A stretch of 39,171 nt of DNA, taken from NCBI GenBank assembly GCA_018224445.1, contig JAGTVA010000024.1, forward strand, positions 1 through 39,171, given 5' to 3'. Below, piece by piece: positions 3,891-5,819 of this stretch; the first letter of the stretch is position 1, and every line of letters starts with the position of its first letter. Under the pieces are notes generated by a model, which was not told where the DNA came from, ran no database searches, and worked only from the letters and a program-made list of their open reading frames with translations. Source of the DNA: Saprospiraceae bacterium. Its GTDB lineage: Bacteria > Bacteroidota > Bacteroidia > Chitinophagales > Saprospiraceae. The position numbers and the translations under genes were made by a program.

Positions 3891-4058
3891 TTATTCTATT
3901 TTTCTCTGGCGGGGTTGCGATTTTTTCAGAGGGTACGGACAGTTTTTGCAACCGGATTTACAGCAGTACCCTCTTTTCAGGTGGTATCTTTCAGTGAAGA
4001 CATACAGGCCGTTTTCAATGGTGTAGTCCTCACCCTTTATGAGTTTCTGGGTACTCAA
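3891..4058 (-). CDS. Small Cys-rich DUF5522-like protein, TTG start
   Basis: This short frame encodes 55 residues. The core reads GLYVFTERYHLKRGYCCKSGCKNCPYPL (written in parts: residues 17-29 and 30-44), with cysteines at 32, 33, 37 and 40. The pattern YCC-x3-C-x2-CPY is the signature I recognise from the DUF5522 family of short Bacteroidota proteins, which may bind a metal. The in-frame TAA lies three codons before the TTG at 4058, so TTG is the only reasonable start. The TTG sits 4 bases after the stop of the DUF6580 gene, which suggests translation by re-initiation. The basic tail (KKSQPRQRKIE) is longer than the usual ending at CPYGF or similar. The family has no established function. 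Confidence 0.75.
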   Translation of the reverse strand: MSTQKLIKGEDYTIENGLYVFTERYHLKRGYCCKSGCKNCPYPLKKSQPRQRKIE

Positions 4059-4062
4059 GTGA

Positions 4063-4629
4063 TTATCTTTTTACCTGCTGGGGAATAAGTGCCGTTTTAC
4101 TAATCAGTGCGTAGGAGCCAAACATCACTCCACAGAAAAAAAGATCTCCTGCCAGGGTATTTAAAAAGAACGGCAATCCGGCAACATATGCAGCAATCAA
4201 ACCACCTATATTTAGGGGGTACATGGTCCCGACGGCCCAGGCTCCAAAATTAGAGACCAGGAAAAATATGACAGAGGCTGCAAGGCTGGCTCCTATCACT
4301 CTGCCGGGATTAATTTTTTTGAGAACAAATCGCGCCAACAGTACCATTAGTAAAATGGCAAGCCCGGTAAAGAGTAAGTTTTTACTAATCCATACAAAGC
4401 CTTCATAGTAGGCTGCATAGACGACATTGTTTAAAATGAGATCGGTAATCCAGACGGCCAACACAGGCACCAGAAATGCCAACCATTTTTTGGAAAAATA
4501 AGCACCGCCAAAAAGGGCGATGGCTCCAATGGCTGTGAAATTTGGAGGGTGGGGTAGTAGCCTGCTCATGGCTGCAAATAAGATAAAGAGTCCCAGAATT
4601 AATCCCTTGTGCTTATAGTTTTGATTCAT
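4063..4629 (-). CDS. DUF6580-family integral membrane protein
   Basis: The 188-residue product is almost entirely hydrophobic, with five or six membrane segments (for example around residues 10-27, 48-66, 78-99, 112-130 and 155-178). The N-terminal signature, SRLLPHPPNFTAIGAIALFG near residue 22 followed by a GGAYF-x2-KWLAFLVP stretch, is what I associate with DUF6580. These proteins resemble the substrate-binding S components of ECF transporters, but no ECF ATPase or T component is encoded nearby, so transport is only a guess. The gene has the best promoter in the window (TTTTG, 19 bases, TATTTTTG) with the -7 box ending 19 bases before ATG. The tiny DUF5522-like gene follows directly in the same transcript. 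Confidence 0.8.
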   Translation of the reverse strand: MNQNYKHKGLILGLFILFAAMSRLLPHPPNFTAIGAIALFGGAYFSKKWLAFLVPVLAVWITDLILNNVVYAAYYEGFVWISKNLLFTGLAILLMVLLARFVLKKINPGRVIGASLAASVIFFLVSNFGAWAVGTMYPLNIGGLIAAYVAGLPFFLNTLAGDLFFCGVMFGSYALISKTALIPQQVKR

Positions 4630-4835: not shown

Positions 4836-5819
4836 ATGAACGGCAAACACAATGGATTTTTTCAAGCGCCCTACAGGGGTAAGAACAATTATTGGCGCTA
4901 TCTGGTAGTATTGTTGGCGGTAATGGTTGGGTATTTTATAGGGCAATTGCCACTCGGGATTGCGGCCCTGCTCCAGATGAATTCAGGTAAAGAGGGGGTG
5001 AGCATAGATGAGTTTCAAAAAACTGCCGATTTTAGTGTATTGGGATTGGATGCCAACCTGGGGTTATTTTTACTGTTATTGAGTTTTGCAGGGGCACTTA
5101 TTTTTCTCTGTGCAGCTACCAAGTTGTTTCACCGGAGGCCCTGGCAGACGTTGATTAGCTATTCGGGAAGGTTAAATTGGAGGAAAATCGGGTTTGGATT
5201 TTCAGCCTGGTTGTTCTTGTGTATTGTGGTGGAGAGTTATTCTTATTTTTCAGATCCGGAAATTTACGAGTTTCACTTTGCGGGCATGCAATTTGTAATT
5301 CTCCTGGTGATTGCATTTTTTGTACTTCCACTGCAGACTTCTTTTGAAGAATTGTTTTTCCGGGGATGGATGATGCAGGGATTGGGTTTTATGTCAGGGA
5401 GTAAAATTGTTGCCTTATTGATTTCAACCGCCTTGTTCGCAGGAATCCATTCATTGAATCCGGAGGTAAAAACCTATGGATATGCTCCCATGATGATGTA
5501 TTATTTTCAGGCCGGGCTTTTTCTTGGCTTACTTACCGCCTTGGACGACTCTCTGGATCTTGCGCTGGGGGTTCATTTTGCGACCAATTTCTACGCCGCC
5601 GTTTTCTTTAATTACGAAGCCGCCGCGCTCCAGACACACTCCCTTTTTACCTCTGAGGAACCGTTGAATGTAATGGGAGTTAACCTGAGTTTTCTTATAA
5701 TAGCGGTAATATTTATTTTCTTTTGTAAACACCTCTATAAATGGAATTTTAATTCTCTGTTTCGCCCTGTGGGAACTCCATCTGACAGATTATTGGATAC
5801 CGACAATGAGGAGGACTAA
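4836..5819 (+). CDS. CPBP-family intramembrane metalloprotease
   Basis: The 327-residue membrane protein carries the CPBP (CAAX protease/bacteriocin-processing, ABI) motifs: motif 1 is FEELFFRGW with E171, E172 and R176; motif 2 is FAGIH with H205; motif 3 is GVHFATNF with H247 and N251. About seven or eight hydrophobic segments surround them (for example 21-47, 76-95, 119-134, 151-167, 190-204, 223-235, 280-300). In characterised members, glutamates and histidines of these motifs form the active site inside the membrane. Substrates range from prenylated proteins to peptides and anti-sigma factors; none is suggested here. The ATG at 4836 opens a natural N-terminus before the first membrane segment. 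The C-terminal 20 residues are acidic and cytoplasmic. All catalytic residues are intact. Confidence 0.88.
   Translation: MNGKHNGFFQAPYRGKNNYWRYLVVLLAVMVGYFIGQLPLGIAALLQMNSGKEGVSIDEFQKTADFSVLGLDANLGLFLLLLSFAGALIFLCAATKLFHRRPWQTLISYSGRLNWRKIGFGFSAWLFLCIVVESYSYFSDPEIYEFHFAGMQFVILLVIAFFVLPLQTSFEELFFRGWMMQGLGFMSGSKIVALLISTALFAGIHSLNPEVKTYGYAPMMMYYFQAGLFLGLLTALDDSLDLALGVHFATNFYAAVFFNYEAAALQTHSLFTSEEPLNVMGVNLSFLIIAVIFIFFCKHLYKWNFNSLFRPVGTPSDRLLDTDNEED

Follow-up and report, generated by a model that had tools for sequence, protein, structure and literature searches.

In Bacteroidota, the uptake of vitamin B12 has been described with BtuB, BtuG, BtuH, BtuJ and BtuFCD (PMC12751083) or, more briefly, with btuB and btuFCD (PMC6977713), as presented in the available excerpts of these sources. 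BtuFCD is an ABC-type B12 importer whose permease belongs to the FecCD family (PF01032). Many B12-dependent Gram-negative bacteria possess an outer-membrane B12 receptor and lack BtuCDF (PMC6072759), and for about a quarter of the gut bacteria with a predicted cobamide requirement no source has been identified (PMC6977713). A different protein, BtuM, was predicted from the co-localisation of its gene with btuB, and most BtuM genes co-localise with btuR (PMC6072759). The B12 operons of Bacteroides thetaiotaomicron (BtuB/G/H/J/K) resemble the loci described here in that they combine a riboswitch, a TonB receptor and additional genes of unknown function. They differ in having BtuFCD as the inner-membrane system, and no DUF5522 or DUF6580 gene is named in the excerpts of that study (PMC12751083). 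Similarly, the available parts of two other papers name BtuFCD, BtuM and CbrT and not DUF6580 (PMC2667541, PMC8123684), and our literature search returned no paper that mentions DUF5522 or DUF6580 by name. The initial annotation of the locus was thus right, for the literature searched, in calling the pairing of the two families undescribed. As the B12-uptake literature, in the portions available, names neither family, we therefore treat DUF6580 as BtuM-like and claim no membership in the BtuM family.

The locus lies on a contig of 39,171 nucleotides from a Saprospiraceae bacterium, the whole of which is called the window hereafter. The features of interest are collected in the table below.

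Features of the DUF6580-DUF5522 pair in the window
Feature	Position	Strand	Remarks
DUF5522 gene, 55 aa	3891..4058	minus	TTG start at 4058, stop at 3891; PF17653 match
YCC-x3-C-x2-CPY core, residues 31-42	3933..3968	minus	holds the four invariant cysteines
Gap of 4 bases (TCAC) between the DUF6580 stop and the DUF5522 TTG	4059..4062	minus	from the sequence; identical gap in L033
DUF6580 gene, 188 aa, helical membrane protein, proposed B12 importer	4063..4629	minus	PF20221 match

The initial annotation had proposed, without stating the strand, a short TTG-initiated gene of the DUF5522 family with a cysteine core, four bases from the stop codon of DUF6580. All of these elements were found, on the minus strand, with the DUF6580 stop being the TAA at 4065-4063. 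The 55-residue product matches PF17653 with 66.9 bits and an E value of 1.6e-18 (cut-off 25) over positions 3-46 of the 48 of the profile, far beyond chance, which confirms that the gene is real; the NCBIfam search of the same protein gave no DUF5522 match. Its motif reads Y31-C32-C33-x3-C37-x2-C40-P41-Y42. In a locus of the same genus (L033), an ATG stands four bases past the DUF6580 stop and 31 residues ahead of the CC pair, and because both the gap and the start-to-CC distance are equal to those of the window, the TTG is very probably the authentic start. Two other loci of the genus (L032 and L034) also have an ATG 31 residues ahead of CC, yet 75 bases past the DUF6580 stop. We favour the reading, to which we assign a probability of about 0.6, that the pair is a small transcription unit for B12 (corrinoid) assimilation, in which DUF6580 would be the importer and DUF5522 a thiolate or metal protein acting after import.

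The DUF6580 protein of the window matches PF20221 with 181.4 bits (cut-off 27) and no other Pfam family, and NCBIfam yielded a single match below its cut-off (15.4 bits against 75). Its AlphaFold (AF2) model, built from six sequences, is of moderate confidence (pLDDT 71.3, pTM 0.68). The top match of this model is BtuM with bound cyanocobalamin (8c7p), both in Foldseek (probability 1.00, E 0.021, TM 0.66/0.69) and in VIA (Z 13.1 over 170 residues, 3.5 Å), and a second BtuM structure, 8ovv, is also among the fold matches. The next VIA matches are ECF S-components and metal transporters belonging to the S-component class, with Z between 8 and 12, and the first row outside that class is MreD, with Z 8.3. 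The model thus supports an S-component-like fold for DUF6580. The fold argues for an importer and does not prove one, because helical bundles can reach such Z values through their arrangement alone.

Like BtuM of Thiobacillus denitrificans, DUF6580 is predicted to be a protein of about 22 kDa with an S-component-like fold, and the genes of both are found close to btuB and to that of a cobalamin adenosyltransferase, according to the available text on BtuM (PMC6072759). In contrast, the two proteins are only 16-17% identical over their structural alignment and show no sequence-profile match. A PDB search with the single DUF6580 protein gave nothing significant, and a profile of 33 DUF6580 sequences run against all PDB sequences gave one match up to E 10, which was not BtuM. 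Cys80 of BtuM serves as a cobalt ligand, whereas the invariant and nearly invariant columns of the 33 DUF6580 sequences hold no cysteine. Moreover, DUF6580 occurs in Bacteroidota and BtuM mainly in Proteobacteria. As for BtuFCD, it shares with DUF6580 the inner-membrane step behind BtuB, at which the two systems replace each other; however, DUF6580 is little over half as long as the FecCD permease and has no Pfam match to it. Some DUF6580 operons retain a BtuF-like gene.

The genomic context of DUF6580 points to B12 as well. Of 146 DUF6580 loci in 139 genomes, 44 (in 44 genomes) have a cobalamin riboswitch (RF00174) no more than 10 kb away, where random placement, with 3.5 Mb assumed for genomes for which no individual size was used, would give about 0.9; the other 102 loci are away from a riboswitch. 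The riboswitch lists for genomes with either family were made with stricter filters, so that weak matches are lost. Riboswitch matches below the cut-off (five, in G204, G251 and G255) were dropped, and two fragments of one DUF6580 in G228 were joined before counting. At many loci DUF6580 immediately follows BtuB, the TonB receptors being named BtuB from their position, by Pfam or by a custom profile. Two loci show the order riboswitch-BtuB-DUF6580-BtuF (L104 and L108) and two others riboswitch-DUF6580-riboswitch-BtuB (L096 and L097). In 11 of 45 relatives, a gene for the adenosyltransferase PduO is found no further than 10 kb from DUF6580. This vicinity to btuB or an adenosyltransferase gene is a feature of the DUF6580 family that is not seen in the window itself, where RF00174 has no match either.

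DUF6580 and the FecCD permease exchange almost exclusively. Across the 247 genomes of our phylum sample, 81 have DUF6580 only, 148 FecCD only, 17 both and one neither (Fisher p 8e-47; our P values ignore kinship). The 60 relatives of the window's genome gave 40, 9, 5 and 6, respectively, those with neither being mostly incomplete genomes, and the relatives at least 90% complete gave 35, 8, 4 and 1. A FecCD match was considered strong if its best E was below 1e-60, a threshold set post hoc; weak partial matches have E values of about 1e-14 or worse, and the 14 genomes with such matches were counted as without FecCD. In many relatives (e.g. G006:C89 and G034:C59), these partial matches, of about 21-47 bits, fall mostly in frames of 420-560 aa, which were likewise not counted as FecCD. 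The exchange does not reflect one old split, because both exclusive states coexist inside single families, for example f1, to which the window belongs (G010, G012, G027 and G028 versus G034), and f22 (G061 versus G137). The sole phylum-sample genome with neither DUF6580 nor strong FecCD, G193, still has a riboswitch and a DUF5522 fusion. In the window's own genome, whose assembly is 86% complete, FecCD found no match, so that DUF6580 is the only one of the two importer families searched that this assembly shows. The genome also encodes PduO, and the one riboswitch found in it, on contig C146, lies upstream of a TonB receptor (BtuB)-DUF5074 arrangement called by profile.

Taken with the fold and the linkage, this exchange makes an inner-membrane B12 importer working like BtuM the best and a very probable reading of DUF6580, for which transport activity is thus predicted. 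Riboswitch control extends to precursor and cobalt transporters, and S-component-like folds carry many substrates, metals among them, as illustrated by the matches of the DUF6580 model to the cobalt transporter CbiMQO (5x3x, Z 9.6) and to a transition metal transporter (4m58, Z 9.5). DUF6580 might accordingly import, instead of whole cobalamin, another B12-related compound such as cobalt, cobinamide or dimethylbenzimidazole. We regard this as improbable, however: the best fold match is BtuM with cobalamin bound, and the near one-for-one exchange with FecCD, often straight after BtuB, leaves 81 of the 98 DUF6580 genomes of the phylum sample without a strong FecCD match. With DUF6580 as the predicted B12 importer, the importer gap in the phylum sample would be filled almost one for one, 81 of the 247 genomes having DUF6580 and no strong FecCD match, and the prediction of B12 uptake in environmental Bacteroidota would improve.

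The small partner is best characterised by its cysteines. V20 and C32, C33, C37 and C40 are invariant in all 45 aligned DUF5522 sequences, that of the window included, which bears out the cysteine core noted in the initial annotation. The four cysteines and P41 are also invariant in 56 of 56 sequences of a second alignment. Because the pattern used to retrieve this second set already demanded the cysteines, the unbiased count is that of the 45-sequence set only. The AlphaFold model of DUF5522 (pLDDT 78.5, pTM 0.49) comprises a beta hairpin, a short helix and a cysteine loop, and by eye no signal peptide is evident. Foldseek against the PDB gave nothing below E 2.6, and a PDB sequence search with the single protein gave no significant match. 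Nor did a PDB search with the DUF5522 profile, whose best hit, over the motif alone, was the oxidoreductase-like protein 7zm7_o (E 0.6). In that alignment, DUF5522 and the Oxidored-like domain (PF09791) have a CC-x2-GC-x2-C core in common; they differ in that the alignment is confined to this core and that PF09791 scores 15.6 bits with the window protein, under the Pfam cut-off of 24. The human proteins C1orf53 and OXLD1 are presumably relatives in this DUF5522/Oxidored-like context; no functional paper on either was among the matches listed, and the literature search found no paper on the oxidoreductase-like domain in Chaetomium complex I.

DUF5522 also occurs in longer proteins. In four genomes of family f43 (L052-L055), it forms the N-terminal part of a fusion protein that runs on through a hydrophobic segment into a secreted-looking domain, and the gene lies between those of a TonB receptor and a DUF5074 protein. 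One DUF5522 protein (L072:5164-5538) has an N-terminal cysteine-rich domain, Cys_rich_CWC (PF14375, 41.4 bits), and longer DUF5522 proteins from several other loci group with this L072 protein in BLAST; a second one (L181:2278-2712) matches PF14375 below the cut-off, with 20.4 bits. In Flavobacterium sp. xlx-214 (L151:6004-8166), the DUF5522 frame runs on into a long protein that by eye looks like a urocanate hydratase. A putative fusion with a BtuF-like domain in L121 (P0005) found no support, as that part gave no Pfam match at E up to 0.001 and the BLASTP similarity to two BtuF-like proteins is weak.

For DUF5522, 20 of 120 loci (20 of 108 genomes) have a cobalamin riboswitch within 10 kb, against about 0.8 expected on the same assumptions, and the remaining 100 do not; a second DUF5522 match in G048, with 14 positions and 25.1 bits, was dropped before the linkage counts. 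The 20 linked loci are not independent events, because 12 of them come from a single genus, g63. At six g63 loci, BtuC and BtuF are divergent from DUF5522, and CobU and CobT are downstream, as called by Pfam in L060 and by profile in L069, L070, L214, L216 and L217. In L060, the DUF5522 and CobU genes overlap by four bases; a Diphthami_syn_2 gene and a nitroreductase-CobT fusion come next, and this group faces BtuF and BtuC. The fusion (L060:3273-4955) joins a BluB-like nitroreductase domain to CobT (DBI_PRT) in one protein of 560 aa. As for the Diphthami_syn_2 gene (PF01902), it recurs with BtuB, BtuF, CobU, DUF5522 or DUF6580 in L060, L092, L099, L104 and L126.

Other families display their own arrangements. 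In f27, the order is riboswitch-TonB receptor (BtuB)-DUF5522 at two loci (L093 and L094), with a Diphthami_syn_2 gene ahead of DUF5522 at a third (L092). In L078 and L086, DUF5522 has as neighbours a riboswitch, a TonB receptor and a gene assigned to DUF5074 by Pfam (L078) or by custom profile (L086), and in L049 and L050 a riboswitch and a TonB receptor lie divergently from a DUF6580-DUF5522 pair. Among the named relatives, Fulvivirga sp. M361 (L112) is the closest, with a DUF5522 that is 82% identical to that of the window, and it has the order riboswitch-TonB receptor-DUF5074-BtuF-CobU-DUF5522-CobT. The order CobU-DUF5522-CobT is also found in L115, where identity to the window protein is 73%. 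PduO is encoded within 10 kb of DUF5522 in 7 of 44 relatives, every one of them with an adjacent DUF6580-DUF5522 pair.

We also counted core B12 genes with profiles for CobU, CobT, the Diphthami_syn_2 gene, PduO, BtuF, DUF5074 and the secreted protein. At least one was present in 15 of 60, 3 of 20 and 19 of 80 loci of the three fetched DUF5522 sets and in 1 of 20 control regions, a comparison that is weak alone. The controls lie 150 kb from DUF5522 genes and were taken by a fixed rule from 20 genomes with long contigs; the single positive one (L208) is the riboswitch locus of G053 and was retained in the count. L092-L111, picked for their riboswitch proximity, were excluded from these locus counts.

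These neighbourhoods make a B12 role for DUF5522 probable. A serious rival is that only DUF6580 serves B12, as the importer, and that DUF5522 is a general small metal-binding housekeeping protein, with zinc or Fe-S, that occurs in many operons. It is to be taken seriously because DUF5522 often stands behind housekeeping genes, namely purB, prfA (RF1), trmB, those of the Lhr helicase (at three Acidobacteriota loci, L120, L129 and L137) and fumarase; a DbpA-type helicase and FtsJ add to the diversity of its neighbours. Furthermore, its occurrence is independent of the permease type, and 61 of the 80 loci fetched by name carry no core B12 genes in their flanks, five of these having DUF6580. Nevertheless, the riboswitch linkage of DUF5522 is about 24-fold over random placement, and its B12 association appears in several Bacteroidota families, on a Meiothermus MAG contig and on two Gammaproteobacteria MAG contigs. 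In addition, the f43 fusion places DUF5522 in a TonB receptor-DUF5074 operon in four genomes. On balance we consider a purely general metal-binding role a credible second choice, clearly less likely than a role in B12 metabolism.

How far the pair itself is conserved bears on the functional partnership and coupled translation suggested in the initial annotation. DUF5522 was found in 44 and DUF6580 in 45 of the 60 relatives. In the phylum sample they were found in 68 and 99 genomes at E 0.001 and in 66 and 98 above the cut-offs, the matches of G115 and G139 (DUF5522) and of G119 (DUF6580) being dropped as sub-cut-off. With the two samples pooled, the two genes lie within 2 kb of each other in 20 of the 61 genomes with both families, always on one strand, and the pair was also present at 5 of the 80 loci fetched by name (L114, L166, L180 and L185 from Saprospiraceae, L118 from Bacteroidetes), so that family f1 is probably Saprospiraceae or near it. 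Adjacency is therefore not confined to the genome of the window. Its recurrence is narrow all the same: 18 of the 20 adjacent pairs belong to family f1, where they span 14 genera, two belong to family f4, and none of the remaining 25 phylum-sample genomes with both families has one. This restriction rules out a general pairing across Bacteroidota. It would also fit an accidental adjacency that was passed on by inheritance, the two genes being functionally unrelated. We find this quite unlikely, since the pair is kept across the 14 f1 genera though the flanking genes vary, adjoins a riboswitch and a TonB receptor in f4, and consists of two families that are each linked separately to B12 loci.

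In the 24 pairs that were fetched, the possible DUF5522 starts vary between positions inside DUF6580 and one that leaves a gap of 159 bases (L043), and many are only a few bases away from the stop of DUF6580, a frequent short spacing that is compatible with translational coupling. Among the DUF5522-positive phylum genomes, 25 have DUF6580 only, 38 FecCD only, two both and one neither. DUF5522 is thus no dedicated partner of DUF6580, because genomes with the other permease type have it at least as often, and a specific dependence on DUF6580 is ruled out. What stands of the proposed partnership is that both families, to neither of which the initial annotation had assigned a function, point to vitamin B12.

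In the assimilation unit that we favour, the two proteins would divide the work. DUF6580 would act as a solitary, S-component-like and BtuM-like corrinoid importer of the inner membrane, in place of BtuCD. DUF5522, presumably cytoplasmic and co-transcribed with it, would use its four cysteines, as thiolates or with a bound metal, to act on the corrinoid after import. It would aid the removal of a ligand or the reduction of cobalt ahead of adenosylation by PduO or of nucleotide-loop repair by CobU and CobT. We consider thiolate or metal chemistry the most economical guess for its action on the corrinoid. This small protein, whose start in the window is unusual, is a concrete candidate for an unrecognised corrinoid-handling step. 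In favour of the unit, seven of the 20 adjacent pairs have PduO and two a riboswitch and TonB receptor within 10 kb; against it, no more than these two of the 20 lie near a riboswitch, and the window has none.

A more specific proposal, which we deem unlikely, is that DUF6580 and DUF5522 together are a two-protein counterpart of BtuM, in which DUF5522 supplies the thiolate chemistry that DUF6580 lacks. DUF6580, devoid of a conserved cobalt-binding cysteine like that of BtuM, would move the corrinoid over the inner membrane, and DUF5522, on the cytoplasmic side, would strip the upper ligand or reduce the cobalt and then pass the corrinoid to PduO or CobU/CobT, with an identical task in genomes with BtuCD. 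As for the immediate surroundings of the pair, a gene for a CAAX-protease-like (Rce1) protein lies divergent from it in the window (4836-5819, plus strand), as it does in the same-genus locus L032.
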